This document shows positions 17,701 through 40,117 of a stretch of 64,000 bases of DNA, piece after piece. A model generated the notes under the pieces. The model was not told where the DNA came from and did no database searches. It saw nothing but the letters and a program-made list of their open reading frames with translations. The stretch is from Boletus sp. NGJ (taxonomy: Eukaryota > Basidiomycota > Agaricomycetes > Boletales > Boletaceae): assembly GCA_019096195.1 (NCBI GenBank), contig JAGTXK010000126.1, positions 1-64,000 on the forward strand, in the 5' to 3' direction. The number at the start of each line of letters is the position of its first letter. Position 1 is the first letter of the stretch. A program made the translations under genes and the position numbers.

Positions 17701-18420
17701 GCTACTGGTGAAATTCCTTTCAAAATAACACAAAACTACATACTGCATATGGGTTTCAAAGGGAATCTCATGGGATTTGCAGAAGAAATCGGGCGAAATC
17801 ATAAGGATATTGAAGAAGCGCTGGAAGCTACATGAAAGAGGATGATCACCTCTTCAGATAAAAAATGATCAACCGCACCTGAATATTCTATTGGTCAGCA
17901 AGTCTGGCTGTCCACCGATAAATTAAAACTTCCGTATACAGCGAAAAAGCTTACTCAAAAATGGATCGGTCCTTACGCTATCACTTGGATCCTTCCTAAC
18001 ACCGTAACGCTTAAACTCCCGAATTCTGTTCACATTCACCCAACTGTGAACATCTCTCGCATCAAACCATATAAAGAAATGCTGCCTGGACAGCCTAAAT
18101 CTTGACCTGACGCAATAGAGATTGACGAAGAGGGAGAAGAGCAGTTTGAAGTTGATTTTATTGCTGCTTCCAGGATAAAGAAAGGTAAACTAGAATATCT
18201 GGTTCACTGGAAGGGTTATGATGAAACTGATCGTACATGGGAATCTGAAGAAATTCACATCACTGCACCGGATGCAGTTAAAGTTTTCCATCGTCTAAAC
18301 CCATCCGCACCACGCAAGCTTTGTGGTTTATCCATTTCAGCATTCGCTTCTTTATTCACTCCTTATGAAAATTTCACCGAAACTGAAAACACAATGACTC
18401 GCCTGGAATTCGAGTCTTAA
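14759..18420 (+). pseudogene. Gypsy-1 pol region: PR-RT-RNaseH-IN-chromodomain (fossil)
   Basis: Visible domains in order: aspartic protease with LLDSGASHTFID (about 15.09 kb); reverse transcriptase with the YIDD box (16036-16047); RNase H with TDASD and TDHKNLEYW (16.48-16.72 kb); integrase zinc region with paired His and paired Cys (about 17.10-17.21 kb) and its catalytic core (17.3-17.7 kb); and a C-terminal chromodomain containing EYLVHWKGYDETDRTWE (about 18.19-18.24 kb). Chromodomains in this family usually steer integration toward heterochromatin. The region is broken in several places and is treated as a fossil. Confidence 0.9.
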
Positions 18421-18431
18421 AGAGGGGGTAG

Positions 18432-18916
18432 TGTTATAATATAAGAAATTTTCAAACTTTTCAAAACAAACATTTACTTTTCATTTTCTTCAACCCTTTT
18501 CTTCATAAGTCACGTGACTGTGCATGTGACCATGGAAACACATCACATGATAGGTCTAGAACCTATGACATCATATGACATTATACCTCATGTGATCCAC
18601 ACCTCTTTAATTTCTGCTCTTCTCACACAGCCCTATTAATCTCCGTCTTACTATACCTAGTAATTTATCACACGCACTGCTTGGTCCGTGCACATTCTCA
18701 TTATATATATAAAGTAGCACTTTGACGACTGGAAACCCCAGTCTAATCCATTTGTTCGCTTCCTCCAATAACCTATTAGCTTTGGCCACTCTGGTCATTG
18801 TAGGGTTAGGAATAGAACGGCCTAAGATTCCCGACCTTATTCGTTAAGCCAGGACTTGTGTAGCCTGTGAGACACGTTTGAGCCTTGTGGATTGGTTTCC
18901 GAAAGGGATCATAACA
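18432..18916 (+). repeat. Gypsy-1 3' LTR (485 bp)
   Basis: Direct-repeat partner of 12501-12987, preceded by a purine-rich tract (AGAGGGGGTAG) and followed by the target duplication CTAGC. All substitutions I counted between the two LTRs are transitions. Confidence 0.95.
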
Positions 18917-18921
18917 CTAGC

Positions 18922-19240
18922 CTGCACAGCTGTCAGGGGCATATGGAATAGGAACGTGGGGTTAAAGATGTAGTTGATGGATGCTGTTTTGGAAGAGCAA
19001 TGTGCAAGCAGATGGAAGGCAGACAGTCACTGCAAAGCATCCCGACAGTGCATGTGATGTGTATGGCTGGCAACATGGCTGTGCTAGAATCACTTGCATT
19101 GTATCTGCAGAGCTGCCACACTGGCTATTGGATGGTCTTCTTTTAGTTGAGCTTATTTTCAGATTGAATCGAAAGCTGCTGTGATGGATGAACTGACCTC
19201 TTGGGTTACTTCTACTCCAACACTGAAGCCCACCTGTCAG
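18922..19240 (-). pseudogene. Displaced 5' tip of the KDZ CxC1 gene and flank
   Basis: Host-side sequence to the right of Gypsy-1. Removing the insertion and one target copy would make it contiguous with 12500. Minus-strand frames here are short and weak (a 62-codon piece at 18933-19121), consistent with the variable N-terminal end or 5' flank of the CxC1-type KDZ gene. It leads straight into the palindromic array at about 19.28 kb. Confidence 0.45.
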
Positions 19241-19284
19241 GTCACTATTGATGCCAAGATCAGGTGCCTGAGGTGGTGAATATG

Positions 19285-20122
19285 ATGCATTTGGCCAGTA
19301 CCACTTGTGTGGCCATATATGCTATGTATACATGGTACCAGCCGATCAAGATGTATATGGTGAGCTCGGCTGGTACCATCTATGTGAGGTGATATATACT
19401 ATGTGTGGGTGGTACCGGCTGACCAGGGTGAATAATGGTGCAGTCAGCCAGTACCATGTATACATAGCATATATGGCCACATATGTGGTACCAGCTGACC
19501 AGGGTAATTTGGTGCAGTCAGCCGGTACCATGTATACATAGTACATATGACCACACAGATGGTACTGGCCACCTAGGATGAGTTCTATGTGAGGGTGGTA
19601 CCAGCTGACCAGGGTGAATATGGTGTAGTCAGCTAGTACCACCCCCATGTAGTATGTATGGCCATGCATGTGGTACCAGCCAATTAGGGTGAATATGGTG
19701 TAATTGACTGGTATTGTATGTGTGGTCATACATATTACATGGGGGTGGTACCAGCTGACCAGGATAAACATGGTGAGCTTGGCCAGTATCACTTGTATGG
19801 TTATACATACTAGATAGGGATGGAATGTAATGTCAGAAGGTTCCCCCTGGCCTACCTTACCCTGAGTACCATATGAGTAAAGATATGAAAGATGTTGTTT
19901 CCTATCTGTTGTCCCATGGTATCTATGTATATGTGATACCAGCTGACCAAGGCAGATGCTCTTCCAGTCGGCTGATACCACATGTGTGGACATAAGTGGT
20001 ATGCATCCATGGTACCAGCTAACCAGGATGAATATGGTGTGGTCGGCCGGTACTGCATGTGTGGTCATACATACTACATGGAGGTGGTACTGGCCGACCA
20101 TCATACATAGAACACATATATC
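19285..20122. repeat. Left palindromic repeat array, inverted partner of 38780-39724
   Basis: A degenerate array built on GGTACCAGCTGACC-like half sites. These face each other around an asymmetric spacer resembling AGGGTGAATATGGTG, and the units are linked by stretches resembling CATGTAGTATGTATGGCCAT. Spacing is irregular, about 60-95 bases. The part 19588-20122, including a non-repeated segment at about 19815-19930, reappears in inverted orientation at about 39180-39724 with roughly 95 percent identity by eye. This is not a CRISPR array: there are no uniform repeats or unique spacers, and the genome is eukaryotic. It could be the subterminal inverted repeat of a large KDZ-type element. Confidence 0.85.
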
Positions 20123-20269
20123 TAAACTATATTGCCAGGTATGTCTCTCAAGTAGTCTCATCAGAATTGAAACAAAGTATCAAATTCTTTGTGATACAAC
20201 AATACAAAATGATGATAAGTAAGGATGGTCTTAGGCATAGTCTGAACCTCAACTTTTCTTGCTAGGCTC

Positions 20270-22801
20270 ATGCTGGCGCTGGCTTTGGGTGTTTCTAGCA
20301 GGGCTATTGGGTTCCTTTTAGGCACAAGATGGCTTGCTAGTTAATTGTGCTGGGAAAGGGGAATGAACAGAACATTTCCTTGCTGCAGGCTTCTTCTGGC
20401 CCACCTCTACCTTGTCTTTTTTCTTTCTGCCATCAACAACCTTCTCCCCCTCAGCTGTGGCCTTTTCCACCTCAGCACTACTGCCCAGCTCAAACTCCTA
20501 TGGCATCTCCTCATCAGCGATCTGGGATGGCAACTTACCAATCATTTCCTTGATGACCTTGATGACTTCTTCAGCCCTTTCCCTTCCAAAGAGAGACTCT
20601 TAAAGAAACATTAGAGAGTTTTCATCATCATCCTCCACCTCCACCACCCTCCAACACTCCCGCAAAAGCAAACTCAAAGCAAGAACCATAGGAGTACCTT
20701 TGTTGCGATCTGCAAACACATACTTGCGAAGTAAAACCAAAGCCGTGCGAAACTCATCCCTCTTGGCATGAATATCCTGGGAAAGATACTTATGGCCTCA
20801 ATGCCAAGACACCCAAGCAGGTAAACTGAGCTTCAACTTTGGGGCCAAGAAGGAAGATTGAGGGGCAGCCTTATGTATTAAAGGTGATCAAACCAGTACA
20901 TATGCATGAATACAAACAAAGACTTACAAAAATAGGCAATGCCAACATATCATCCAACAAAGTCTTGTAAGAGGGGTTAAGAGACAGGCTGTATAGGAAC
21001 TTTGGCCTGTCGCTGTTATTTGCTGTAGGACTCTGGTCCTTAGAGACAGCTGGCTGCTGTCCAGAGAAACGAGGATGCTTGGATGGTGGAGGTCTAACAG
21101 GGGATGCTGATATCCCCTTACTCTTGTCAACTCCATCCTTACCTTTCCCAGTGTGCCCATCCAGGTCATCATCACCTTGATCGTCACCTGACTCAACCTC
21201 AACATACAGCTTCCTTTTGTTGACAACCCGAGGCACCTCTAATCCAGCAGATAACCCCAAGTCTTGCCTCCATGCCTTGATGAATATCAGGATGGGAACC
21301 TTGACCTTTGCCTGTGCTGCCCAGTAGGACCAGAGGCGGCTGATCATCACCTTGGTCAACTTCGAGGGGTCCAACATCTCAAAACCTTCAGGAATGATAT
21401 CAGCATCCAGATACTTGGTTGGCATCCTGGCCAGCTCCAGCCAAGGTACATGGACCTTGTCGTGCTTGGTGATCCTCACTAGTTGTAATTAGAATAGTAT
21501 AGTTAGCAAGAAAAAAATATACTAACTGTATGCTTTGGTAAAAATATCACATACAACATCTTGCCATGACTTCAGCTGGATGGCATGGCATGTTAGGAGG
21601 ATTGGATGGCCCAAATCATCCACTGCAACCTCTGGGACCTCTTCTTCTCATCAGATGAACTCTCATTCTCATTCTCATTCCCCTTCTCCTTTTTGGAAGT
21701 CTCATCTGGAGCATTTTAGTAGCATAAGATAGATGAAATTCTTATCAGTTAGTTATTGTAGTACTCACCTTCATTTGGCCATAAAACCAGCCAGGAGTTC
21801 AGCTCCCTGCTTGGCCCAAGCCTTGCAGTCATTGAATGAGACTGTGAAGTGGTGGTCTCATTTGCCACCACAGATACTTGTCTCAATACTATAGGGGAAA
21901 TTTTGAATAAGAGCCAATATACATCAAACCACTTACTATAGTGCATTGACACTGGCACCAGGAGCCTCATAGCCCTGTAGGACTATACAGTGAACCCCCA
22001 TAGTATGGTGTAAAGCATCAATAAATTCAACTGTCCTATTTCAAAGGTTCTTCTTGCAATAACTAAGCAGAAATCAGTTGAATGCCCCTTTCAAAACAAC
22101 AAATAAAACTCACACAAGCATTTTGTCCTTGTTGGGAGCACCCTCAGAGTTCCACTTTACAACAGCCTTCTCTGCTTCCTCCATTTTGCTCTTGGGAAGT
22201 TTGTTGAACCATTTGTGGATAGCAACAGTGTGATTCCCAAAAGTCTTCTTATCTGTCTTGTCTTGAGACCCACCATTGATCTAGGCTACTTCATCTGCAA
22301 AAATTTATTGGGCAACATGAAAGGTATCCCATGGAGTCCAGTAATCCCCAGCATCGTTTGGTCTTGCAGCAGCCTCATGCTCCTTGGGGGTCATGTCTTC
22401 ACCACTTTCCTCAAGTAGCACCAACCTCAGTTCTTCTTCCTGCCTATCAGCAGTGTCCAGCCAAGGAAGGAATTCCCTGCAGATTGCCTGCAAAATTAAT
22501 CATCAATAAATCAGTAGTAGGTACACAGACATGTAACTTCATGAATAGAAAGACTTACTCAATGAAGAAGTTGGGAAAGCTCAATGGCTTGGTTTTCAAG
22601 CAAGGGAGACTTTATAATGACATTCCAGCAATCCTTGAGAATTTGTGCACAAGCAGCAGGGTCCCCACAATCCTCAATGTACAGCTGGGCATATTTAGCA
22701 AGGGTTTCAAAGAAAATCACACACCAATCAGCAGACATGATGAGGGAATTGGTGAGTTGGAGCAGTGTGGGATGAGGGCAAAAATGTGTGAGAATCAGCA
22801 A
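20270..22801 (-). pseudogene. Decayed multi-exon accessory gene C of the transposon cluster
   Basis: A series of minus-strand coding-like segments read from 22.80 down to 20.27 kb. Recognisable stretches include QAICREFLPWLDTADRQEEE and WTPWDTFHVAQ (22.49-22.31 kb), FNKLPKSKMEEAEKAV followed by EGAPNKDKML (about 22.2-22.1 kb), VPWLELARMPTKYLDADIIP then GFEMLDPSKLTKVM (about 21.4 kb), an acidic, Lys-rich disordered stretch (21.25-21.0 kb), and a helical C-terminal region with FRTALVLLRKYVF (about 20.7 kb). Introns of about 60-100 bases are plausible between them. From memory this arrangement belongs to a recurrent Agaricomycete family found near transposons, with no known function. Occasional in-frame stops (for example at about 20.6 and 20.5 kb) suggest decay. 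It lies directly inside the left palindromic array. Confidence 0.45.
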
Positions 22802-22945
22802 ATCACAGTACTATACCTGTGACACATCACTTGCATACCAGAACCATGACATCATTGGCTCCCTTTTATCTATCAATCTACCAATTCCACCCATTACGAG
22901 ATCAGATTCAATCCAAGACTACATACACCCTTGCAAATTAAGTTT

Positions 22946-25491
22946 CTAACTGATAATAAGCTTCAACCATCTACTAGCACATCCCCCATATTCCCTCCTG
23001 ACACTTAAAATAACTGAATCCAAAGGGTACACAACCTGAAAAGAGTAAGGCTCCTTGAGAGTCTTACCATCTGCCTTACCACAGTCCTGGTTCTTGCATT
23101 CCAGCCTATAACCCTGGATCTGTTTCACAAAAACAGAGGCCCATGGATCAAGTATTCCACATTGTGGGCACTGCAGTGGCAAGATCTGGCCCCACGGTTG
23201 ATAGTTCTGATGGGCCCAGAAATACTTGATGATGCGCTCTGCAAAGTGGACAACAGAGGTATGCCTTCCCAATGTTGTACATTGCTTGAGGGAGTATTCA
23301 AGGGCTTGACTAAACTCAAAGCTGTGAATTATGACAGACTTGGTGACTTTCATCAACAAATCCACCATATTCATGGTAGAAAGATACTTTGTATCAAATG
23401 TAAGAGCATCTCCTACCCCCAAGCTAATGGAAAACATATTAGTAATATATCGGACTGAAGTGCAAAACTTACCTGGCCAAGCCTTATCTCAGCTCAGCAA
23501 GGGACTCAGAGTTGTTGACCACAGCACCACAAAGCCAACATAAACAGGATACAGCCGTCAAGTACAGCCTTGAAGGGTCTGAGAATATCCTCAAGCCACT
23601 GTTGGATTCAAGGTGAACGTCAGTATGAAAAGATAAAATAGATGGGTACTCACATTACTGACCATGGCTGCACAAGTATCACCATGCTCATCTTGTCCGA
23701 GCCACAGGTCACCAGTATCGGGGTCGGAATGCATGGTGACAAAGACAAAGACATGCCTATATCTAGAAAGACTGGCCACGAGCTTGGCTGCTTCGCTATG
23801 CCAGTCATGTCGAGCGCTCCGTCATGGCCAACATTGAATGGGACATCGATCACCCAAAGTCAGTCATCTTGGTAATATTCAGCCAGGAGCTGATCCACCA
23901 TCATGAAATGGGTAATGCAGTGGATCATATGGAAGTGGAAATGGAGGAGGAGAGTGGGGGGGGAAAGCACGGTGGCACTTGTCGCCGTTTCAAAGGTTTC
24001 TTGCATCTCAAGGAAGTTGTTAAGAACCTGTTTGTCGTCGATAGTGAATCCCTTTAAAAGATATTTACGCATTAGCATGAACACAAGAAGCAACAAAAAA
24101 ACTTACAATATATGAGAGGCCCTTCCCTCAATCCAATTTCCAGTGGCATGAGATGCAGCGGAACTTGACATTGGGGGCCTCCAGCTTGCTGAGTTTCTCA
24201 GGTGGAATTTTGATGCAACAAGCACAAACAGTGTGCTCACAGCCTGGCTCATCACATTCCCAGAGATTTCCCCCATCTTGACAGAGGGAATGAAATCAAG
24301 CCATCATTGTGATTATAAATATACCACAACAAGTACTCACCTGAATATCTGAAGACAATCTAGCTTGGCGCATGTTTGAGTGGCAAGGCCAGGTTTGGGC
24401 TGAGGATGTGTGACCTCAGGCCATGCAAGCAGCATGCATTTGGCTGTGCCACCGGTGGTCTTCTTTGCCATTTGCTTGGTACAAGTCATGTTGGAAGGGC
24501 TACATCTCACATTCGCGGTACTGTAAATATGTTGACTTGTCCCGAAAAAAGAACTGGTCACATACAAGCCAAATGCAACGTGTACTGTTGCCCAGCAGGG
24601 TCAGGATTACTTTTTTTCGAACAACGTCCATTTTTGGTTTGGCCATATATAACATGTATGGCGTGTCCAATTTGACCTATACAGCCTCGATGCATCCATT
24701 CGACTTGGTGAATCGGTCACCTTGATCTGGGTACAGCTAACTCTTGTAGGGTGCGATTTTAATTGCCCTTGACGACATGGTGGATCTGGAGTATCTGGAG
24801 GTCATCTGGGACACTTGGGACATGCATGGGACATTCAAGGGTGCAGTGGAGACCTTTAGGTATGTGCACATTACCTCCCAGGTCGTGTACAGCATGTTTC
24901 ACCTTTGGGCGCATGCCCGGTGAGTTCAACTTTTCCTTGTTGATGCGCTCAGGTTCTGATGTTATCTGCAGCTTGTCAAACTGATTGGTGGCCTTGCCGA
25001 CGTCCTTGGAGGGTTCTGGTGCACCCGCTTTGGGTGCAGTGTCATAGCTCACTGGTTTACTCCTCTCCCTCTCCCTCGACACTCAGGGATTTGTTTTGTC
25101 ATGCAGTTTGTGGAGGTGGACTGGTATGTGATGGGGTTGGTTCCTGGGATAGTCCAGGTGCATTGTTGTCGTCCATTGAGGTGCGCTGATGATTGTCTTC
25201 GACAGCTCCTCACCTTCTCTCACCTTCAGTCTGCATGTTCTGTGTGCTTCCTCTGTGATACTGATGCTGTCCCGCCATGTTGCATTGCACATTGTTGCCT
25301 TCGCCATGCGCATTCGTGCTGTGGCGTTGGTCTGCATGTGTGCTGTTCGTGTGTGGTGGTGTCTCGTCTGTAGGGTTGGAGGTCTGCTCTTCATCTAGCT
25401 TGACCTGGGTACGCGCGGTCTCTCGACTCGTCGCATGGTTTGTCCATTCACATACTATGTGTATTGTGCGATGCACTCCATGCGCTCGCAC
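22946..25491 (-). pseudogene. Decayed accessory gene D with PHD-type zinc finger
   Basis: The minus strand reads from about 25.5 kb. An N-terminal region rich in Gln, His, Thr and charged residues (25.49-24.76 kb) is followed by a PHD-like finger at about 24.27-24.13 kb: CQDGGNLWECDEPGCEHTVC, then ACC and CISCHW. Next come KGFTIDDKQVLNNFLEM (about 24.06 kb), DPDTGDLWLGQDEHGD preceded by HVFVFVTMHS (about 23.75-23.68 kb), CGAVVNNSESLAEL (about 23.5 kb), and a last segment (23437-22946) with CPQCG and CKNQDCG knuckles ending SRWLKLIIS. The strand-then-His (TMHS) and strand-then-Cys (CGAVV) positions recall the His-Cys dyad of caspase/CHAT-fold proteins; that is only a hypothesis. PHD fingers usually read histone tails. 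Stops and unclear joins indicate decay. It is transcribed away from the TET/JBP-like gene. Confidence 0.5.
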
Positions 25492-25865
25492 TACTCATTC
25501 AAGTCCACTCTCCGAGGTGGTGGTGTGGCAGAGGGAGTCTGAACTACCCTACCCTCAGGCTGTTCCTGCAAACTCATGTTGTGTCAATAGCTGCATTCAT
25601 AACATGGTTGCCTACTACCGATCATTTTGGAACCCATCTGCAATGAGCCTGCTGCATGATTGCAGTTTGTGATTTGAGAATCTAAACTCATGTGACATGT
25701 CCCCCCATGAATCTCTGGGACTGATCACAATGTGTTATGCATGATCAACATTGTCACATGCTCAGGCAATGCCAAACACATATAAATGTTTGGCAACCAT
25801 AAGCAATGTTTCCCTGGTGATTTTAATTCTCATGCTCCTTTCTTTTTCCCTTCTGTCACAGTATA

Positions 25866-25925
25866 TAACAAACCACTTTGTAGTTATATAGGGCTGCAGC
25901 CTATATAACAACAAAGTGTTTGTTA
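25866..25925. repeat. 60-bp near-perfect palindrome
   Basis: The left arm 25866-25892 (TAACAAACCACTTTG onward) and right arm 25900-25925 are reverse complements with one mismatch and one extra base, around the centre GCTGCAG. It sits in the intergenic gap between the minus-strand PHD gene and the plus-strand TET/JBP-like gene. A role as hairpin-forming site, transposase site or the footprint of a small inverted-repeat element is possible; none is shown. Confidence 0.8.
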
Positions 25926-25984
25926 CCTTTTTCAAAGTGTGTTTTTACCTCATGTATTCACTAGCTAATCTTACTGGGTTAGGT

Positions 25985-26280
25985 GTGGGCTCAGAACCAG
26001 GCAAGGGTTGGTGTGTCAGGATGCTAGTCCTGCTCCCACCCTTGCTGTTTTCTTATGAGTTGATGGCTTTGCAAGGTTGGTGTGTTGGGATGCTAGTCCT
26101 GCTCCCACCCTTGCTTGCTTCTACTTTGTTGGTCCAGGGCTTCGTGGGGTTGGTGTGTCGGGACACTAGTCCCACTCCCATTCTTGCATCTTCTTTGTTG
26201 GTTGAGGGCTATGTGGGGTCGGTGTGTCAGGACACTAGTCTTGCTCTGACCCAACCCTTGGCTTTATCCTTGTTCAGTGA
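25985..26280. repeat. Minisatellite, about four units of 65-73 bp
   Basis: The phrase TTGGTGTGTCGGGATGCTAG followed by TCCTGCTCCCACCCTTGC recurs about four times with drift (starts near 26008, 26077, 26150 and 26219). The plus strand happens to be open through it, giving a Leu/Val-rich repetitive peptide, but there is no domain and the repeat explains the open frame. The surrounding 25.93-26.30 kb holds nothing else. Confidence 0.75.
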
Positions 26281-26299
26281 GATTTGGGTAAGCTTAATT

Positions 26300-26840
26300 G
26301 TCTATTTTGCTATTTAACACTACTAGCGCTTCTGATGTGATCTACCCCAAGGATTTGGTTTCCACTTCCAAAGAAGCAGTTACTTTGTTTGAATTTGGTA
26401 TTGGCAGCACTTGTAAGGTTAGTACAATTATTCTATTTCATTACTAAAGTCTTAGACTTCTTATAGCCCTTATGTTGGATGGATTTTCGGTAAAGGTTGG
26501 ATTTCAGTGTTGAGGAGTTCCATTTTATGGTTTTGGTTGGGATCTCAGTGCCATGTACTTTCTCTTGCTTGAACAGCTTGTCAAGGGGTGGGCCCCCCCT
26601 TGCCAAGCTGCCTTGCTCTTTTTTTTTTTTCACTGTGCAGTCGAACTTCCATTTAACATACGTACTAGCTACTTGTTTCTGTTTAAATTTTGGGATGACT
26701 CATCATGGCCCCTGTTCACATCGCTGCAATGTGGTCACATGACCTCATGTCTGTCTGATTTTTAACTTAAAGTGCCTGTAACCTAGTGTGATGACCAAAC
26801 TTTAAAAATTTTCAAATTGGCAGATTGGCAGCTTTCTCGA
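26300..26840 (+). other. Possible 5' exon or leader of the TET/JBP-like gene
   Basis: Weak plus-strand coding signal, such as VIYPKDLVSTSKEAVTLFEF at about 26.34-26.40 kb followed by a GT-rich junction. A T-run lies at about 26621-26631. These could be upstream exons of the dioxygenase gene; no domain is recognisable. Confidence 0.2.
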
Positions 26841-26849
26841 ATACTTGAT

Positions 26850-28155
26850 ATGGATGCAGGTCCTCCCCTGGCTGCCTGTGTTGGTAAGGTTCTGCAAGAG
26901 GTTGCATGGAGCCCCATCATCACTCAGGATGAATTTTAGTCAGCAAACTTTACAAGCCTAAGTACAACCTGCCAGTCCTTGTAACATATTGATTCAGTCT
27001 AACCACTTTCATTTTCACAAATTCTAGGTTAAGGGCTCAAGCCTTTGTTGAAACTCCTCCCACAATCACTATTGAACAACAAGAAGGTAAAATGATATCA
27101 ATAATGGATGTAGAAGTCCAACATTGTGCAACTGTCATTGCTGTGGCCTTCTTGAACCCAAGTAAGCAAAATTAAGTTCCAAATTGGTATGCATTTTGAT
27201 TGCTCAGCTCCCTACTTGGCTCCCAGTCTCAGTTGACTGGAATTATGACAGGTTTGCCAACTCAGAGAGAAAGCAGCATTCAGGGAAATTTTTTGCCAGT
27301 GTCCACATGGGTTCCATTACAAAACCAACAACAGTTATTGACATCCATGGTAAAATTCTTATGTGGTATCTGCCTGGCCTCCTGCTCCCCCATCAAGTGG
27401 TGTGCTTCAAAGCTCCTTTCCAATCTCTTGTTTATGCTAACTTTGTGATCAGGAAGAATTGAACTGGGTTACCAAGTGCCTGAAGAAATCTATATGTGAT
27501 TCAACCAGCTGTGGCCAAGACTTGTCAAGCTGGCAGTTGGACAGTTTTACTTGCAATAGTGGAGAAGCAATTTTTGGTGCAGGCAAGTTATCACTGTTGA
27601 TCAGAAAGTTGGTACCTGGACATAAGATATGTACACCTAGTCTGTAGTTAGGAACTCCCACAAATGTCTAATATAATGTAGTGGCTTCAAGACCCTATAT
27701 GTTCCCCACAGATTCTCTGTGAGGAAGCTGTTCAAGAATGGCTTGAGTTCATTGACCCAGTTGAGCAGCTGCTAAATGCAATGCTGTAGATTGTCCATCT
27801 GGAGATGTGGTCAGTAAACAGCAAGGTTACTCCATTGCTGACTTGGCCATCTATATACCCTGGCATGGATGTTATTGCCAACCAGGTCACACCTCAGCAT
27901 TACAATCAGGGTGGTGCAATTTCTTTTTATGACCACTTAGTTAGCTTTGGTAAGGGTCATGGTGCCCAATTTCTGCTTGCAGACTTTTATGCAGAGTTTT
28001 CATACCAACCTGGAACATCTATTTTATTTCCAGATAAGGTTTTGGCACACTCAGTTCCAGAGTGGTCTGGGGGGAAGAGGTTAGTAATTGCCCATTATGC
28101 CAAGGATGACATACAGGACAGATTGGGAGTGGCTAGACTCTTGTTGCCAACTTAA
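26850..28155 (+). pseudogene. TET/JBP-family 2OG-Fe(II) dioxygenase gene linked to a KDZ element, inactivated
   Basis: TET/JBP enzymes oxidise methylated pyrimidines in DNA. Visible here: an exon with RAQAFVETPP (about 27.03 kb); after an intron, TVIDIHGKILMWYLPGLLLP (27.33-27.39 kb), the DxxGxIxxWYLPG signature I associate with fungal members; a segment with SWQLDSF (about 27.53 kb); ILCEEAVQEWLEFIDPVEQL (27.71-27.77 kb); then WPSIYPGMDVIANQVTPQHY with NQGG (27.85-27.91 kb), SYQPGTSILFPDKVLAHSVP (28.00-28.06 kb) and KRLVIAHYAKDDIQDRLGV. The double-stranded beta-helix order is clear. The HxD iron motif reads H-Y-N (His 27898-27900, Asn 27904-27906), so the second metal ligand is lost; the distal His of LAHSV and the Arg of GGKR remain. 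An in-frame TAG lies at 27787-27789. It sits 440 bases upstream of, and in the same direction as, a KDZ transposase, the linkage reported for basidiomycetes. Confidence 0.8.
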
Positions 28156-28592
28156 TTGGATTGGTGGTCCAAATTTAGTTAGATTTGTGGAGTAGCTAGA
28201 CAATCAGCATTATGACGTGATTATAACTGACACCAAAGTTCCTTGAGTATCTGACAGATTAGCACATAGTATGACGTGATTAGTTTGTAAAGATTCTTGA
28301 GTGTCGGATGGATTAGGGGTGGCTTGACCCTTGTTGCCAATCCATTTGGGTTGTTATAGTTCAAATATAGCTAGATGCTACCAAAGTTCCTTGAGCCATC
28401 AAACAGATTAGGGGTGACTTGATTCTAAGCTAGACCAATTAGCACTGGACATAGCCATGATATGTAATGTGGTAAAAATATAGCAGGTTAGATTAATATG
28501 TAGTTATTTGACAGGTTAGGCTGTGTGATTGGCACTGAGGCTCCTTGAGTAATAAAATTTAGGGGAAATAATATTAGCCTCTGAATGCCAAA
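28156..28592. repeat. AT-rich spacer with imperfect repeats between TET/JBP-like and KDZ genes
   Basis: No gene. The spacer holds drifting copies of short phrases: CAAAGTTCCTTGAG followed by ATCTGACAGATTAG or similar (near 28233 and 28382), TATGACGTGATTA (near 28213 and 28269), and a CTTGACCCTTGTTGCCAA type phrase (near 28138 and 28325). It looks like a small decayed tandem array forming the promoter region of the transposase gene. Confidence 0.5.
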
Positions 28593-31500
28593 ATGTCCTG
28601 CTCTCATCGAAAGGCCAAGAAAGTCAAAGTTTCTGTTTACAAATTGGGAGGCACAAAACCTAGGGCTTCTAGGTCTATGGTTGTCCTCACCCCTACCACA
28701 ACCAGGAGGGAAAAGATCATTTATACTGAAGTAGATGCTGCCCTATATTACAAATCATCTGATGAGGAAGGCAAATCACCAAAAAGGAAATGTCCTAAGA
28801 CCCCATCTCACTCTAGGATAACTGTTTCTGCCTCGCTAGAGGATACATTTCTGCAGGAGGCTTGCTTAGATGATCAGGAGCCTCATGTACCAAGGATTAC
28901 CAAAGTAAGATTGAGATGTAATGCATAATTATGATCTAATAAAAAGTAGTCCCAGAACGATTTCCTTTTGGAATGGGTTCCTTGGAGGGCTACCTACCTG
29001 AAGATTCTCCTGGATTCTGAAAGCCCAGGATAACTGCAAGACAAATGTGCTCTTTGTCTTCAAGCAGACAATGAAATCCAGTGTCTTTCATGCCTAGGGC
29101 ATCATGGATGGTGTCATATTTGTGCTGTCAAAGCACACATGTCTTTTCCATTTCATAGACTTCAGAGGTGGAATGGTCAGTTCTATGAGGTTATCTCTCT
29201 TTAGGACCTGGGTTTTACTCTAAACCTTGGACATAATAGAGATGCCTGTCCTCAAAATGCTGGAGAAAACGAACATGGTGATCGAATAACTATGGTGGAC
29301 TCAGCAGGGATCTTTGTTCACTCAGTGAAATGGTATAGATGCAATGAGGCCAGTGATCAGGACAAACATCTGCAGCTTCTTTGGCATCATCTCTTTCCCT
29401 CCAGTATCTTCAAGCCTCAAACTGCCTTCACATTCGATGTTTTGGACCAGTTTCTTATTGATTCCCTGGAATGCAAGACCTCAGCATCTAGCTTCTATTC
29501 AAAGCTCAGAAGGTTCACCAACAATGCTTTTCCTGATACTCTTCCTGTATGCTTTCTGATTTTAATATTGATTGAAACTAACACAGCAGTATTAGGATCA
29601 CTATTGGAAATTAATGAGGGTGTCAAGGACTTGGAGAGACCTCTCCAATCGAAAAAGATCAGGGTTTGGTCATGATGCTTAGAAGGACCCAGGAAAGGGC
29701 GATTTGGCAGTGTTTTGTCCTGCTTGTCCTCAGCCAGAGATCAATTTGCCTAAGGACTGGGCTATGTGATATGGTAGGTCAGTGTATTGTCATGCCCCAT
29801 GGAAATTATTTTTGCATGGCTAACTATAAAACAGTGATACTGTCTCATTGCACTATGTGGTGGATGGTAACTTCACTGCTCAGCACATGAAAATGTGTAA
29901 GCCTGAGCATGATGTACCTCTCTCAGATGGTTTAGCTTATATGGTGACTAATGAGCCCTACAAAAAGCATGTTGTCCAGGCTGCAAATAATGAAGAGATA
30001 TGTATTACTGAACCTCAAGGGTGCTTTCGCTTTCATACTCCTTTTACATCTTATAGAGGTCAACATGCCAGAATCATAGGGCTGTTAACAACACCAATAT
30101 TAACAAAACTCACCTGCAGGCCACTAGTGTGGGTGCTACTGCCTGTGCTTGTCATGGATGCTTTGTTCCTCATTCTGTGGTTGATTTTTACAAGGGAGAA
30201 CAGTAAGTTCATTTCCTAGGATTATATAAATAATTTGTTGATTTTTAACTTGGCTAAAGGCAAAAAAATGTTGACTACTCCATTTGTCAAGTGATCTCCT
30301 ACAACTCTGATGGTATACAAAAAACCATTATCATCTATGATGTGGCTTGCCAATGGCACAAGAATTTCTTGGCTAGGGTAGAGAAAGCTCCTGCCTTGTT
30401 CTTGCCAGATGATTTAGATGTGGTTCCAGCGGTTTGAAAATTCCATTTGAGTGCCCACAAGGCTCTATGTTTCTCCCAGTTCAGTCTCATGTTCCTTAAA
30501 GGGGCAGGCCATATTGATGGAGAGATATTGGAAACTCTTTGGGCCTCCTTTAATAAAATCTCACCTTCTGCAAGATCAATGACTTTGGCACACCGGCAAG
30601 AGCTTTATGATGATCATATGAGAGACTCAAACTGCAAGAAGCTAGTGGGAATAGGTGAGTGAACTTTTGCTTTGAATTGCAGGTATTCAAGTCAAATTCA
30701 CTTTGAATTGCAGTGAAGACTTTATTGAGGAAGCTAAAAGCTGCTACTGATGGAGTAGAGTCCACAGAAGGTCCATTTGAAGAGCTTAGCTCTGCTTTGA
30801 ATACTGATAAATTGAGAGTTTGGACTGAGGAGGTAGAGAAAGCTAATGATGAAAGAGGTGAAGCTTTGAATGTGTATAGTTTACAGATGGACAGAGGTGG
30901 ATGGTTTTTCTTTATCAAAGTGGTCCTGCTCATTATTCTTGCATCCCTTCCATAGCTCCTACATTGGCAGAGATGAGACTCAATCTGCTAGATGTGAAGA
31001 CCTCAACCTCTGGAATACAAGGTTCTATGACCTGGATGATAGAAGGTATTAGTATTAAGGATGCCCAGTGAGTAACTGGGTTAGTCATTTATAAGGGGCT
31101 CTGTAATATTAATGCTATTATTGCAGAGATGCCTTGCAGGCAGATATACGTTGCTTGCCTGCCATTCCAACAACAATCCAAAATGCTGACATTCTCCAAA
31201 AGCGACAAAGACTTCATACCAGATTATCCAAGGTCAACCAGATGACACAACTCTTCATGTCTGATTTGGACATAAATGTTATATTTTTACATGTGGATGA
31301 TCCTGATTTCTGTCCTGAGGAGAAAGGTGAGACCCTGGATGATGAAGAAAGGGAGAGGGCATTCTGGGGAGCCCTAGGAAATAATAATGCTGAATATGAT
31401 GGATATAAAGATGATTCAACTAAGAGCTTTCCTGAAGATCTCACCCTTTGAATGCCATCCTATTTGAGGGCCTCCTGCCTGAAAGAGGCTGGGTTAGAGG

Positions 31501-31900
31501 AGCTGGTAAAGAAGGAGGTCAAATTGCACATTGGGCAGGTAAATGATTGTTTGGAAAAACTAAGAACTCATTTAGGTCACAAGTCTATCCTCTATAGGAT
31601 GGACTTTTGAAGTTCAACCTTAGTCAGGACTGACACCAGATCCAAACAAGATATCTGAAGGGTAGCCTTGAAGATTACCAGGAATGTTCGAAGTTACCAT
31701 AGGGCAAGGGAGTCTCTGTCCCATTTGGAAGCTTCTCAAGACATCCTGCAAAAGTATCAACTCATAAAGCCTGATGAACTAGCAGTATCCAAGGATATTA
31801 CTGAGATAAATCAGTTTGGTCAAAGTTCTGACATTCTTCCTTGGTTTTGGAGAATCAGAGAAAGTTAGCTTGGGCCATCTGGTGTGTGGAATGAGGAATG

Positions 31901-32243
31901 TGAAAGGAAAAAGATTCACAATGCTACGAGTCACCCCTAGAGATGATATTCGCAGTGTAAAAGGACAATTCCAAAGATGCATATCTACTACAAGGTGTGC
32001 TACCATATATACGTAAGGAGAAGTGCACGGACCAACTATAGGGCTGGCATGGAATGCACTAGAAGGATGACATAATGTTCTGGGTAGTTCTATGACATAC
32101 GTATTCAGTCATAGGTCCAGATGCGTTCTCTAGTTTAGTGTAATTGTAAGTGTCAATCAGGATGTCAGTCAGGTTCTGAGTTGGAGGAGTCAAAATGAGC
32201 TCGGGAGTCTCAAGATTGTTGGATAAAGAGAAAGTTCATTTCA
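31901..32243 (-). repeat. Gypsy-2 3' LTR (343 bp)
   Basis: Exactly the same length as its partner at 37969-38311. The complement of a purine tract (CCCCCTTTTC on the plus strand) follows immediately at about 32248, as expected at the inner edge of a 3' LTR on the minus strand. Confidence 0.95.
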
Positions 32244-32254
32244 TTACCCCCTTT

Positions 32255-35200
32255 TCAAGGGTAGAACTCCTGGTCGACCAGTGTGCCGGAGAGGAGTGGT
32301 TTCAAGTCGGGCGAAGGGATTTTGAAGAGATGATCAGGAAGGTGGTTAAGCAAGGCGGCGTAGGAACGGAAGGTAGCATCGTTGAAGAGGGTAGTTTGGT
32401 ATGTGCAGAGGGGGCAGTCACACACTGTGTCGAGGGATCGTACGGCAGAAGGGTTGTCGGTGTGGAACTTTTCCACTAGTTGCGGAGCATTGGTAACATT
32501 GTGTTTCAGTTCCCAAGTTCGTTCCTCACATGGGTAACCCTTCCAGTGGACGAGGTACTCCATCTTTCCTCGGCATTTCCTTGAGTTGACGACTTCTTGT
32601 ACTTTGTGCTCCTCTTCCTGGCTGACAATCACCAGTGGTGGTGGTTTCAGTTTTGTCTGCAACTTGGCTGTCCCTTCGTGGTAGGGGGTGAGTAGGGACT
32701 CATGGAATACTGGATGGATTCCACGCCATGTTTTGGGGAGGTCCAACTTGTACAACGCCTCTCCTACTTTGCGTTTCACCTTGAAAGGGCTGTAGCGCTT
32801 ATCATCAAACTTTTTCGTGGGCTGGTCTGTTCGGATGTTGGTTCCTTCGAGGAGGACTTGTTGACCGGTCATGTAGTTTGTCAACGGGGCAGCTCATTTG
32901 TCGTGATTCTTTTTCATCATTGCAGCCACCTTTTCTAATGCACATTTGGCTGCTTCATGGTGTTTCCTCATCTTCTCTGCGAATTCTGAGGCCGACTTGT
33001 TCCATACTTCAATCTGTCTGTCTGGGATGAGGAGTTGTTGCCCATAATTGAGCAGGAAGGGGGATACTCTGGTGGCACTTGTTGTACACGAATTATGCAC
33101 AAACTCTGCAAGCGGAAGCCACTCTATCCAGTCAGTCTGACGATGATCCACGTACACCCGTAAGTACTTTTCGATTTCGCGGTTCACCCGTTCTGTTTGT
33201 CTGTCTGTCTGGGGGTGGTATGCAGTGGACGGGTTGGCCTTGATATCAAGGAGTATGTAGAGGTCCTTCATAAGGAAGAGATGAATTGTGTTCCTCAATC
33301 GGAGATAACCTTGCGGGGGGTGCCATGGAGTTTGAAGATTTGGTCATGAAATATGGTTGTGACCCCTTGAGATGTGATCGTGTTCATCACTGGTGCGAGG
33401 TGTATCATTTTGGAAAAGCAGTCAACAACGACCAGTATTGCATTCTTTCCCTGTGATTGGGGGAGTGGGCCGATGAGGTCAACGGAGATGATTTCCCATG
33501 GCGAGGATGGGATTTCGTTGGGATGGAGGGGGGTGTGGAGCAAGGTAGTCTTGGCTTTTACCTTCTGGCAGACGTCACAGCCCTTGACGTATTCTTCAAC
33601 GTCTTTCCGAAGTGATGGCCAGTAGTACTCGCTCATGATCAGATCACATGTTCGTTTCATGCCAGGATGTCCCGCAATTGGGTGGTCGTGGTTGGTTACA
33701 ATGATGTCTTCTCATAGTTTCTCGTCGTTTGGGACATAGACGAGTCCTTTCCACATTATGAGCCTGTCTTTCTTTGCCCAGTTGGTGTTCTCTTTAGTGA
33801 AGCCCTCCTTTATGAACTTCTCGAGTTTGTATTGCAGTTTTGTAATTCTCGAGAGGGTGGAGGGTGGGGTGACTGCGCTGATGGACACTGGTGATGAGGG
33901 GAGAGAAAAAAGATTGTCCGGGAGGAGGATTTGGGTGGTGTTATTGAGTTCCACCCCCTTTTCAAAATCTGGCCTTTGAGACAGAGGGTTGGCAGGGTTA
34001 GTCTTACCCGAGTGGTGAGTGATAACCAGGGAATATTCCTGGATTATCTGCTGCCACTGGGCTTGATGACAGGAGAGGTCCTGAGGGCGGCGGAAGAATT
34101 GGAGGTTTTTGTGATCAGTGAGGATTTCAATGGGATGCACAGTGTTGAGGAGGTATTGGTGCCATTCACTGAGGGCATAGATAATGGCTAGCATCTCCAA
34201 GTCAGCTGCATGGTAGTTGCATTCCACGTCATTCAGGGATCTTGAAATGAAGGCGATAGGGTGCCAAAGCCCATCATGCTTCTGGGATAGTATGGCGCCT
34301 ATGCCGATGCCTAAGCCATCAGTTTTGACCCAGTAGGGATCGGTGTCCGTTGGCATGGCAAGGGCAGGGATGCTCATGATTGTTGCTTTGAGGTCTTCAA
34401 AGGCCTTCTGGCAATCCACAGACCAGGTGAATTCTTTCTTCACCGACATGAGCACATTAAGGGGGTGCGTGATCATAGCGAAGTTTTTGATGAAGCATCG
34501 GTAGAAGTTGAGAAATCCTAAGAAACCTCAGAGTGTTTTCTTGGAGGTCAGGACTGGCCAGTCGGCGATGGCAGAGACCTTCTTTGCATCCATCTTTACC
34601 TTGTCTTGTGCGACAATGAGGCCGAGGAACTCAGTTTCTTGGACCTCGAAGTCACACTTGTTGTGTCTGAGATAGAGATGGGTGTCTCTTAATATTTGTA
34701 GCACTTCTCATACTACCTTACAGTGTTCCTTGATGGTTCTCATGAATATCATGATATTGTCAATATACACTACCACTACGCCTCAGTCTACCAGGTCCTT
34801 GAACAGTGCGTTCATCATAGTTTGGAATGTTGCTGGGGAATTGGTAAGGCCGAAGAACATCACGAGAGGTTTGAAGAGTCCGTGATTCATCTGGAATGCT
34901 GCCTTCCACTTGTCACCTTCTGCCATCCGCATGTTATTGTAACCCCACCTTATGTTGAACTTGGTGTAATACTTCGCCGCTTTCAGTTTATCAATGAGTT
35001 CGGCGATGAGGGGGAGGGGGTATTGATTACGGCAAGTTACTGCATTGAGTTTTCGGTAATCTTGCACGGGGTGGAGGCATTGGATGTCATTTTGATGAAG
35101 AAGAACATGGAGGCGAATGGGGATTTGGACGGTCGTATGCATCTGGATTTGAGGTTTTCCTTGAGAAATACGTCAAGTTCCTTTTGTTCCCCTGGGTTTA

Positions 35201-35840
35201 GGGGGTAGACTTTACAGTCCACCTTGTGGTTTCCAGGGAGGAGTTCAATTGCATGGTCCCAGGGGTGCCTTGGTGGGAGTGCATCAAAACTCTCTTTTGT
35301 GAATACATCCTTGAACTCATGGACATATTTGGGGGCTGCTTCCTCAAAGGTTTTCTTCTTTTTTTGGGCGTAGTCTTTGATGGCTACTTCCATGGCAACA
35401 TTTCATAGGTATTCATCGGTATCCAGTCGGAATAGCCAGTCTCCCTGCGATGGGACAAAGTCTTCATTGTCTACTGATGCAGTGGTGTGGTCGTTTCTGC
35501 ATCGGAAGGAGATCCTCCTGGTTTTCCAGTCAATGGCTGGGTTGTGAAGCTTCAGCCAGTCATGACCGAGGAAGATCGTATTGGGCCTCAGGTTGGTTAC
35601 TGCTAGGACGATTTGTTCCTTGTGGTCTTGTACCTGTAGCTTGACGATGACAAACTTTTCAATTTTGCCTCCAGCATTGGCGATGCCGTCAGCATTGTAC
35701 ATCGTGAGTGCACGGGGTAACGAGTGCGTTTGCACCCCCTTTTTAGCAACAAAGTCCTCATGGATGGATGATCCTGTGCATCCTGAGTCAATGAGTGCCT
35801 TGACTTCAATTTGTTCTCCATTCAAGGTGCCAAGTTTCAC
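32255..35840 (-). pseudogene. Gypsy-2 pol region: PR-RT-RNaseH-IN-chromodomain (fossil)
   Basis: Minus-strand domains in order: protease with LIDSGCTGSSI (about 35.79 kb) and ending with FLGHDWL; reverse transcriptase (about 35.14-34.49 kb) with NPGEQKELD leading in and FGLTNSPATFQTMMNALFKD; RNase H (34.43-33.95 kb) with HAADLEMLAI and TDHKNLQFF; integrase zinc region and core (33.66-32.89 kb) with CDVCQKVKA and TAYHPQTDRQTERVNREIEK; and a chromodomain with EYLVHWKGYPCEERTWE (about 32.56 kb). It is broken and treated as a fossil. Confidence 0.9.
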
Positions 35841-35949
35841 AGGGATCTTGAGGGAGTTTCTTCTTGTTGTTCACAGGGACGTTTTTTTGAAGTGGGGGGG
35901 GGGGTTTTGTAGATCACGCAGTACCCAGTACACGTTTTCCGGTGTCATT

Positions 35950-37640
35950 TTTCAGAGTTCCTGGACAAGGTCCTGGGACACTTCAATTGCCCTGGTTTCG
36001 TGAACAAAGGATTTTAGGTGTCTGATGGTCCACTCAACCTCAGGGTGTTCCACCTGTGCCTTCATCCAACGTATGGACCAAGGGTCCAACATATTTAACC
36101 AAGGACGAGAGGATGTCCCTTCCTTTTGTTCGGGTTCTCTTTCTTTCGGGTGTTTATGAGGTATCGTACTCACATCATTTGGTTCGTCCTTTTTTACCGA
36201 CGGATGGAATATCACTTTCTGTTCGTTTTTAGGACATTTGGCAATTTTTGTTATCTGGAGGCTTGTTGGAACCTCTAATGCTGATGTGACTTGCTTTTTT
36301 GGGAGGCTCACTCATACCTCCTCTTCATCGGTCTTGTTGTTGCACAGAACAGAGAATCGATTGTTTTGCAACTTATTACTTAGTACAGTAGGTCAACCGT
36401 TGTCTACTCTACAGGGAGAAAAGACGAATCCTCTGCTACTTCGGAGGAGTATTTTACATCAGGGTTACGCTCAGCATCTGTCATCATGAACTCCGCTTCC
36501 TCTGCGAAGTGGTACAGCTTGGTGAAGTAGTCCTCCACCATATCCTTGCCTTGCTTAAGGGCCATTAGCTTTTGCTGTGCCACCTGCTTGAGATTGGCAG
36601 GTTGGAAGTTCTTCTTGAGCTTCTCCTCAAAGCTCACAAAGGTGAGAATGTGGACGGCTCCTTGTGTCATCATGAGGTCTCCAAACCATCCTGCAGGGTT
36701 ACTTCCGCAAAGGTATGAGAGGATGATCAAGATTTTTTGGTAGTCTTGTGGGTTGGTCTCAAAGCTGGACAGGTATAGCTTCATGGTCCTCCACCATGAA
36801 ACAAATTTTTCCTTGTCACCGTTGTAGTATTCTGGTTTGGCGGCGAGAGATTTTCCCAGTTTTGGAGAGGTACTAGGGAACCCTCGTGCTGGGAGGCAGG
36901 GAGTTCTGGGGGATGGGGCGAATGAGGGGATCAAGGGGAGTGGTTGCCAAGGTGGCATTGGTTGCAGGGGAAGAGCTCATGATAAGAGGTTGGCGGGAGG
37001 CGGCGGTGGTGGGCCAGCCGCTGATCCTGCCCTTGCATATATTCTTTGCCATGCGTCAACTGCAGCAAGCCACATCCCTATGGGGTCCATGGCGGAGACT
37101 TCGTGTCATTGGTGTAGCAGGGGGTTTACAGGCATGGCAGGGACAAGACCTGGGGGGATCTGAGGTTGGAGGATGCCTCTTGCCAAGGCTTGGATGGGTG
37201 TGGGGAATGTGATGGAGGTTGGCGTGGATGGGATGCTGACCCAAATGTCCTCAAGAGCTGCCTCCATTTCCCCGAAGGTACTCTGGTGGGTCAGGATGGG
37301 GGTCTGAGAGGGCGAGTTGATGTAGCTCATCAGTGGTATTGCTCATTGAGGTTGTGGAGGAGAGCAGTGAGTACCTCAGCAAGTAGACGATTGGGGTTGA
37401 TTGGGTACAGTCACCGAAGCAGGCAACAAAGGAGATGAGGGCGCGGTAAGTGGGGATTGGGCATGGTGGTGAAATGCCAATGAAACTCGTGCCAGGAGCA
37501 GCTGGCAACAAGTTGTGACAGGGGATAGTTGCAACCTGGTGGCGCTCAGCAGCATGCCTGGAATTATGTGGAATGATGGGATAGGGGCATGTGTAACATG
37601 GGTGAGTACGATCACCAACGACCAACTACACATGTAATGC
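35950..37640 (-). pseudogene. Gypsy-2 gag region (fossil)
   Basis: Upstream of the protease on the minus strand. The best part (36958-36404) has a Pro-rich start and a capsid-like domain with YYNGDKEKFVSWWRTMKLYL and an alpha-helical region ending near FAEEAEFMMTDAERNPD. I see no clear CCHC knuckle in the 3' part. It is broken like the rest of the element. Confidence 0.7.
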
Positions 37641-37956
37641 AGGCAAGTACGATTGCCAACAGTGGAGACACTGTGGGGGCAAACAGAAGGTGGGAGTTTC
37701 TTTCTTCAAGAGTTGCGAGTCATAGGGGACCTAGGCCTCCTTATCTTCTCTGCTAGTTGTAACTTACCCTTGCGCTAGCCACCACCGTAAGAGGCTGGGA
37801 TTATGCTTATTGCTAACAAGGGGTTACAGATTCCTAGGGATCAATGCGGGAAGGGAAAGGAAAAGAAGGAGAACAAGCACGCCTGCAAAGTGCGGCAGTG
37901 AGGCAAGACTGGGGGGGAAGGTGGTCAAGAGGCAAAGTGCCTGGTGACCAAGGGTT

Positions 37957-37968
37957 ATCTTTGGAATT
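37957..37968 (-). other. Gypsy-2 primer-binding site, self-priming type
   Basis: The 12 bases adjoining the 5' LTR (minus-strand AATTCCAAAGAT) are the exact reverse complement of minus-strand sequence inside the LTR (38035-38046). A TATA-like stretch lies about 33 bases upstream of that LTR segment (about 38073-38079). This is the Tf1/sushi fold-back priming layout. Confidence 0.75.
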
Positions 37969-38311
37969 TGAAAGGAAAAAAATCCACAATGCTATGAGTC
38001 ACCCCTAGAGATAATATTCGCAGTGTAAAAGGACAATTCCAAAGATGCATATCTACTACAAGGTGTGCTACCATATATACGTAAGGAGAAGTGCACGGAC
38101 CAACTATAGGGCCAGCATGGAATGCACTAGAAGGATGACATAATGTTCTGGGTAGTTCTATGATGTACGTATTCAGTCATAGGCCCAGACGTGTTCTCTA
38201 GTTTAGTGTAATCGTAAGTGTCAATCAGGATGTCAGTCAGGTTCTGAGTTGGAGGAGTCAAAATGAGCTCGGGAGTCTCGAGATTGTTGAATAAAGAGAA
38301 AGTTCGTTTCA
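37969..38311 (-). repeat. Gypsy-2 5' LTR (343 bp)
   Basis: Direct-repeat partner of 31901-32243. It is followed at 38312 by the target duplication GAATG and then by the continuation of the KDZ CxC2 coding sequence. All of the roughly 15 LTR differences I counted are transitions. Confidence 0.95.
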
Positions 38312-38779
38312 GAATGTAAGTGCTATAATGCATTGAATTTTTATATCTTTCTGAGGTTCACATATCTGCTTTGAAGTTCATAGAGTCAGCTGGTTGAAGA
38401 CCAGGGCCAGATATCAAAGGTGGAAAGAAGAATTGGTGATGGTGAAACATGAGATGGTTTGGACCACTCTGTGGTTCAAACATCATAAGCAAGAATGGGA
38501 GAGACAACACAAAAATTCTGCAAAAGCAGGGCTGAAAGCATATGCTGCAAAGCAAAAAGATATTTGGGAGAGGTTCAGGAAAAAGGCTGAAGAGAGATTC
38601 AGAAAGTACGTGACTTCCAGTGAAATCTGAGTTGAAATTGTGTCATGCAAGTCAAACTACATGATCCCTTTAAATGACATATACGGGATATGTATATACT
38701 TTAGGTATTCAGATTACACTAGTGTTATTGGTTAGTCATATCATATAGATAGTATAGGCTATCTAGGAAGACATTATGA

Positions 38780-39724
38780 GGTTGGCTGGTACTATATATA
38801 TATCACATAGCTCATATGTATTATGGTTGACCAGTACCATGTATACATAGTATGTATGACCACATAGGTGGTATTGGCTGATCACACCACATTGGCACCC
38901 AGGCCAGCCAGTACCACCTCCACGTAATATGTATGACCACACATGCAGTACTAGCCGATCACACCATATTCATCATTGTCAGCCGGTACCACAGGTGTGG
39001 CCATACATATTACACAGAGGTGGTACTGGCCAACTGCACCATATTCACCCTGGTCGGCTGGTACCAGCCTCACATAGTATGTATCACCTCACAAAGAACT
39101 CACCCTGGGCAGCCGATACCACATGTGTGGACTTAAGTGGTATGCATCCATGATATAGGCCGACCAGGATGAATCTGCATTGGTCAGTATATGTGTCCTA
39201 TGTATGATGGTCAGCCGGTACCACCTCCACGTAGTATGTATGACCACACATGCAGTACCAGCCAACCACACCATATTCATCCTGGTTAGCTGGTACCATG
39301 GATGCATACCACTTATGTCCACACATGTGGTACTAGCTGACTGGAAGAGCATTTGCCTTGGTCAGCTGGTATCACATATACATAGATACCATGGGACAAC
39401 AGATAGGAAACAACATCTTTCATACCTTTACTTATATGGTACTCAGGGTAAGGCAGGCCAGGGGGAGCCTTCTGACATTACATTCCATCCCTATCTAGTA
39501 TGTATAACCACACAAGTGATACTGGCCAAGCTCACCATGTTCATCCTGGTCGGCTGGTACCACCCCCATGTAATATGTATAACCACACATACAATACCAG
39601 TTAATTACACCATATTCACCCTAATTGGCTGGTACCACATGCATGGCCATACATACTACATGGGGGTGGTACTGGCTGACTACACCATATTCACCCTGAT
39701 CAGCTGGTACCACCCTCACATAGT
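38780..39724. repeat. Right palindromic repeat array, inverted partner of 19285-20122
   Basis: Same half-site vocabulary as the left array (CTGGTACC, GGTCGGCTGGTACC, ACATAGTATGTATGACCACA) in inverted orientation. The segment from about 39180 to 39724 aligns to 20122-19588 reversed. Inner ends coincide at the CTATGTATGATGG phrase and the outer homology stops at CCTCACATAG. The array begins about 150 bases after the end of the KDZ CxC2 coding sequence. Long minus and plus open frames through it are by-products of the repeats. Confidence 0.85.
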
Positions 39725-40117
39725 ATGTACTTCATATCAAGAGATGCAAAACTGTTGCAATGGTATTGCTGTTTTGAAATGGACATAACTCCACAGCCTC
39801 TGATCCAAATCACATGATCCAGAGGCCAGATTGTAGCAAAGAGTGTGTACATTGTTTGTTCCCATCAAAGCGAAGTGTAATTCCCACAGGTGTTTGCAGA
39901 CACCACATCAGAGTTAAACATTGCAACAGTTTTGAAGGTCACTGTAATATATGATCTACCCAAACTGCTACTAATTGCTCATAAGGGGGTACTACTTGGA
40001 CCAAGTCAGCCAGACCCATATATACATTTCCTCGGCCACATGTTGGGTGGTCCCAGATCTACAACTATTTGTACATGTCAGGGGAACCAGTTGTGTGACT
40101 CTTTGACTAAATGGTCT
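39725..40117. other. Junction between transposon cluster and WD40 triplication
   Basis: About 390 bases without a recognisable gene. A plus-strand open stretch of 83 codons (39890-40141) has no known domain. The sequence outside the array has no match to the flank of the left array, and I could not find a target-site duplication that would fix the outer edge of the transposon. Confidence 0.4.

Follow-up and report, generated by a model that had tools for sequence, protein, structure and literature searches.

A probable KDZ transposon copy with mirrored palindromic arrays near its ends in the genome of Boletus sp. NGJ

Two inverted palindromic arrays flank about 19 kb of DNA in the window, which is the first 64,000 nucleotides of contig JAGTXK010000126.1 of Boletus sp. 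NGJ (assembly GCA_019096195.1), and the locus raises the question of whether they belong to the ends of a mobile element and what such ends might do. A preliminary description of the window had put them forward as candidates for the subterminal inverted repeats of a large KDZ (Kyakuja-Dileera-Zisupton) transposon. The genome that was searched comprised 32.8 Mb in 141 contigs, designated here by number, with the window at the start of contig C11. The proposal held in that the arrays fit and a KDZ gene lies between them, but the array edges are not the termini of the element, the right terminus being at 40117 and the left one lost at 19275. As far as its identity alone is concerned, the segment is very likely a truncated, apparently dead copy of a KDZ-superfamily transposon, with the following parts.

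19275-40117, plus strand: what remains of the KDZ transposon copy, 20.8 kb including nested insertions, its left terminus lost
19275-20120, plus strand: left subterminal palindromic array; 19585-20120 matches the right array, and the outer edge is the truncation point
20121-29204, strand not assigned: left body, colinear in pieces with C40 (as far as 26966) and C10 (starting at 21525)
29205-29675, plus strand: open reading frame (ORF) with the CxC2 cysteine-cluster domain of the transposase gene (E 5.2e-25)
29845-30632, plus strand: KDZ transposase domain in three pieces (profile 2-51, 50-101 and 88-217) with in-frame stops
38780-39187, minus strand: extra inner part of the right array, a diverged duplicate, from self-comparison and motif sites
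39188-39729, minus strand: right subterminal array, inverted copy of 19585-20120
39947-40117, minus strand: right terminus, 171 bp, recurring at ends of C10, C40 (and its duplicate C55) and C82

The inverted recurrence, earlier placed at 19588-20122 and about 39180-39724 with about 95% identity, was confirmed when the window was compared with itself by BLAST: 19585-20120 matched 39723-39188 over 536 bp with 96.1% identity (E = 0). The non-repetitive stretch that had been reported within the pair was present inside this match at about 19820-19925, and the inner ends did coincide, at 20120 and 39188. On the left, array-like sequence reached out as far as 19275; on the right, it continued inward to about 38780. 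The 21 differences between the left and right arrays were all transitions, with no transversions. When the C40 array was included, left and right differed at 17 of 393 positions, and C40 differed from them at 29 of 396 and 32 of 393, respectively. Nearly all of these differences were transitions, which shows that the two arrays were nearly identical at insertion, and their later homogenisation by conversion was rejected on this ground.

The arrays contain a 14-bp motif, GGTACCAGCYGACC, whose orientation mostly alternates at a spacing of 30/45 bp. The motif was picked by eye from the array itself and counted at up to three mismatches, which gave 15 sites in the left array and 16 in the right. 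When each array was shuffled 200 times with its dinucleotides kept, the counts averaged 0.175 and 0.18 and never exceeded 2; six sites were found in the remaining 62,175 bp of the window. Among the 29 gaps between neighbouring sites, 11 led from a plus to a minus site (29-31 bp in 10, 47 bp in one), 11 from a minus to a plus site (45-47 bp in nine, 81 and 8 bp in the others), and seven joined sites of the same orientation (75 and 188 bp on the left; 122, 75, 102, 188 and 75 bp on the right), the basic period of the array being 75 bp. C40, with 11 and 6 sites, and C10, with 5, showed the same phase; C82 had one site.

At least 22 matches to the array were found genome-wide, 11 on C11, eight on C40 and three on C10. 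The preliminary description had considered that the arrays might turn up as free satellite with no link to KDZ genes, but all 22 of the listed matches lay at three copies of the element, so the arrays are not free satellite. Window 19727-24582 was colinear with C40 855751-860708, continuing in pieces to 864019, and window 21525-29235 with C10 192932-202157, including 29107-29235, which reaches 31 bp into the CxC2 ORF. The colinear pieces were 84-93% identical and were interrupted by insertions at different places. In both C40 and C10 the order was terminus, array and body, with nested insertions between. The left array of C40 was split by an apparent long terminal repeat (LTR) retrotransposon at 848979-855750, with terminal 302-bp direct repeats of 92.7% identity, and the C40 copy ended at window 26966, before the KDZ gene. 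C55, a short contig whose flank is 82% identical to C40, looks like a noisy, error-rich duplicate of the C40 locus, and because of this apparent duplication four insertions were counted and not five; except for C55, no paralog of the C40 left flank was found. Four transposons of about 1.6 kb with inverted repeats of 213-227 bp were also observed in and near the C10 copy (C10:189471-191089, 191334-192938, 196215-197832 and 209875-211487).

The 171-bp terminus occurred in five places (the window, C82, C10, C40 and C55). The left ends of C10 and C40 carried it in the opposite orientation to the right end of the window copy (94% and 93% identity, respectively), and to judge from these alignments the three ends represent a terminal inverted repeat (TIR), seen between copies only. 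At the left end of C40, the terminus lay directly outside the array, the two together measuring 1,256 bp (860 + 396), while at the left end of C10 a nested 1.6 kb transposon separated them. The mirrored lengths were 171 bp between copies and 536 bp within the window; put generally, a terminal unit of about 170 bp is mirrored at the right and left ends of different copies, and an array of about 0.5-1 kb lies inside it.

The outer boundary was located by comparison with related flanks. Two paralogs of the right flank, at C11:49873 and on C14, did not differ from each other in the 80 bp upstream and diverged from the window at 40117/40118, a split supposed to represent an empty-site comparison. 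The match of C82 to the whole window stopped at the same base, 40117, and the left end of C10 was placed at about 189302-189304, where it diverged from paralogs on C113 and C109. Two types of end were distinguished: the window right end and C82 began with 5'-AGACCATT (longer, 5'-AGACCATTYAGTY...), and C40 and C10 with about 5'-AYATACTT (longer, about 5'-AYATACTTCAGTC...), followed in each case by the shared run. The preceding base was C in the window and C10 and T in C40 and C82, the base of the left boundary being uncertain by 1-2 nt. An 18-base end pattern gave 54 matches at up to three mismatches, as did its reversed control; the four of them at 0-1 mismatch were the ends in C10, C40, C82 and C11. 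On the left side of the window copy, homology stopped at 19275; 18917-19274 had one other match, of 53 bp, on C118 to window 19226-19278. Since homology stops there and an LTR retrotransposon (12501-18916, with CTAGC on both sides) lies beyond, the left terminus is lost, and position 19285, where the segment was first thought to begin, is close to a truncation point and not an end of the element.

The gene between the arrays was recognised by both of its domains. CxC2 (PF18803) scored 88.1 bits against a cut-off of 27, and the best KDZ piece (PF18758, 30228-30632, profile 88-217) scored 101.3 bits against a cut-off of 26.6; the piece covering profile 2-51 was weak, at 18.1 bits, and the in-frame stops may be introns or decay, which were not told apart. 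Because the C40 copy stops before the KDZ gene and the C10 copy 31 bp into the CxC2 ORF, only the window copy was seen to hold the KDZ core. At least 88 pieces of KDZ domains and at least 23 TET/JBP matches were found in the genome by profile search, an abundance that suggests a mushroom-type fungus; no TET/JBP match lay in the window. A second KDZ domain was present on the minus strand at 10527-11229, to the left of the 12501-18916 retrotransposon, and no inverted repeats of at least 30 bp at E 0.1 were seen around it. At C133:42932-62320, KDZ and TET/JBP matches were mirrored about a point near 52.6 kb, as if two inverted TET-carrying copies lay there.

The copies of the element look dead. 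Across 20123-31895 and the arrays, CpG is strongly depleted and the copies diverge almost entirely by transitions. The ratio of observed to expected CpG was 0.19 for the body, 0.18 for each array and 0.135 for 38317-38779, while two stretches to the right of the element had 0.98 and 1.09; it was 0.25 in window 1-12501, which holds the other KDZ domain, and 0.73 and 0.51 in the two LTR elements. Transitions and transversions numbered 204:20, 157:5, 150:8 and 202:12 in four comparisons of the body and 132:43 in a tandem host duplication. The share of transitions at recognisable CpG patterns (91/204, 92/157, 89/150 and 71/202 in the body; 59/132 in the host duplication) does not set the element apart, but the excess of transitions does, as do the TG-to-CA exchanges, with 34, 30, 30 and 26 in the body comparisons versus 5 in the host duplication. 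This pattern of decay is what methylation-driven mutation, or a process like repeat-induced point mutation, could leave.

The alternating 30/45-bp motif suggests a series of predicted transposase sites. In the proposed mechanism, the motif pairs would be occupied by several molecules of the CxC2/KDZ transposase, which may use the CxC2 cluster for this contact. The bound transposases would bring the two ends together and position the catalytic domain for cut-and-paste at the outer terminus. Cytosine methylation probably silenced the copies once they had inserted, and the silenced copies would have decayed by C-to-T changes. The account as a whole, comprising a KDZ copy, mirrored ends, array motif pairs bound by the transposase, and later silencing and decay, is considered reasonably probable. 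The more specific idea of a KDZ lineage with kilobase-long ends of phased palindromic motif pairs, a predicted assembly platform for CxC2/KDZ multimers, can be put forward only tentatively. Such a mode of end recognition is not described for KDZ elements in the accessible parts of the literature examined, and the form of the arrays is unusual for the ends of a known superfamily. The combination of a defined terminus and a phased motif array would provide a concrete candidate binding sequence, and the array could be used as a probe for intact relatives.

The interior had been described as about 19 kb with cargo. A Pfam scan of 76 ORFs at E 0.01 (74 from a list of 96 and two from another list) revealed no cargo gene, and the interior is not plain, as it holds the first two of these nested insertions.

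24583-25716, strand not assigned: 1.13 kb insertion of a dispersed repeat family, absent from the C40 and C10 copies
31901-38311, minus strand: nested LTR retrotransposon, 6.4 kb, with GAATG at 31896-31900 and 38312-38316
39730-39946, strand not assigned: 217-bp piece from the inverted repeat of a 1.6 kb transposon of high abundance, inserted between the array and the terminus

Without nested insertions, the length of the element would be about 13.1 kb. The retrotransposon at 31901-38311 encodes a chromodomain and RNase H on the minus strand. For the 217-bp piece, 37 other matches were found among 40 scored of 175 candidates; the first of the C10 1.6 kb transposons (189471-191089) had no real match to it, so the two belong to different families. 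The Pfam matches in the 76 ORFs were to KDZ (three), CxC2 (one), CxC1 (one) and, weakly, a RING-type finger (one, E 0.006). In 20 comparisons of 13 partly overlapping ORFs with C40 or C10, mismatches at codon positions 1, 2 and 3 numbered 246, 184 and 221, with no excess at the third position, and new stops appeared in 12 of the 20. The Pfam scan, codon-position counts and new stops support no cargo gene, although one may have been active at a time before the copies became defunct. Directly to the right of the element, 40118-53073 is occupied by tandemly duplicated WD40-repeat genes (two ORFs tested); the start of one of the duplicate copies has a 283-bp relative on C14.

Several observations weigh against the assignment of the segment to a KDZ transposon with array-bearing ends, 1) the transposase part, 29236-31890, had no close copy in the genome, a 74-bp stretch being its single second match, 2) no motif clusters were found at other KDZ loci in a genome search with this motif only, 3) no palindromic array, but one hairpin, was found in C133:38000-47999, which holds another KDZ and TET/JBP gene, 4) a target duplication, typically of about 8 bp in the KDZ superfamily, was looked for at all five places with the terminus, but no copy with both ends was found among the four insertions counted (C11, C40 together with its duplicate C55, C10 and C82), and hence no target duplication and no complete element, 5) the paralogs at C11:49873 and on C14 are related and count as one line of evidence, and 6) the sequence upstream of the supposed empty site was not found to the left of 19275, apart from a 14-bp match (E 0.05), so the window does not show both insertion flanks. 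The 14-bp match, exact between 19259-19272 and 49800-49813, may be due to chance or may be a trace of the original left flank. At the edge of the C133 region, weak direct repeats (52-82 bp, about 70%) start at 47742.

The arrays could also be part of the KDZ element and serve another role, acting as a promoter, as a target of silencing or as the origin of hairpin RNA. With RNA parameters, six hand-picked array units fold into hairpins of -16.6 to -25.3 kcal/mol, and the arrays are CpG-poor and so were perhaps once methylated; however, end recognition accounts better for the regular phase and for the mirror orientation on both sides, beside the terminus, and a role of this kind seems rather unlikely. 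That the arrays bound a different, non-KDZ transposon with the KDZ element nested inside it is improbable. The single-copy state of the transposase part at the DNA level and the end of the C40 copy before the KDZ gene are what such nesting would give, but C10 is colinear into the CxC2 ORF, no inverted repeats of at least 15 bp (E up to 1) were present within 20121-31895 to delimit a nested element, and no other transposase domain was detected in the 76 ORFs scanned. Least credible, and very improbable, is a palindromic satellite or hairpin duplication without a tie to transposition. The arrays are palindromic and tandem and have an internal duplication on the right side, as a satellite might, but this explanation was rejected on the location of the array matches and on the motif counts: of 42 genome matches to the motif at up to one mismatch, 25 lay in these arrays or in C55, and the other 17 were fewer than the 30 matches of the reversed control. 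The order of terminus, array and body kept by C40 and C10 also speaks against it.

Transposons of the CACTA/EnSpm and hAT groups have subterminal transposase-binding repeats, in the form of clusters of short motifs inside their ends. The motif clusters are alike, but the transposases of these groups are unrelated to KDZ, and we know of no CACTA/EnSpm or hAT element with a 30/45-bp alternation. For KDZ elements, none of the titles and beginnings of abstracts covered, all from openly accessible literature, dealt with subterminal arrays; in the accessible parts of two articles, "subterminal" and "tandem repeat" do not occur in PMC12730594, nor does "subterminal" in PMC12810828.

The view that KDZ termini are poorly known was not upheld, since TIRs and target site duplications (TSDs) are in print, to go by the accessible part of PMC12810828. 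According to that part, KDZ1, KDZ2 and KDZ3 of Cryptococcus neoformans are mobile; their TIRs measure 241, 139 and 169 bp and their TSDs 8 or 4-8 bp. Like the present element, they combine a CxC cluster, a KDZ core and TIRs in a DNA transposon of large size (about 9-11 kb), but they have CxC1 and TIRs of 139-241 bp, in contrast to CxC2 and the 1,256-bp C40 end here (PMC12810828). Zisupton and one Dileera element have 8-bp TSDs, while Kyakuja-1_LB and -2_LB of Laccaria are reported to have 5'-CA..TG-3' termini, 7-bp TSDs, a TET/JBP gene and no TIRs (accessible part of PMC12730594). The Laccaria elements likewise belong to the KDZ superfamily and to mushrooms; the present element differs in having TIRs, ends that do not consistently start with CA, and no TET/JBP match in the window, and it lacks the combination of absent TIRs and 5'-CA..TG-3' termini that marks Kyakuja. 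The giant KDZ elements of Ectocarpus are also large and carry nested transposable element insertions, which are generally common to the copies (accessible part of PMC12477816), whereas the nested insertions mapped here lie at different places in the copies. Of the features of the KDZ superfamily, the KDZ domain, the CxC cluster and, between copies, the TIRs are present in the Boletus element.

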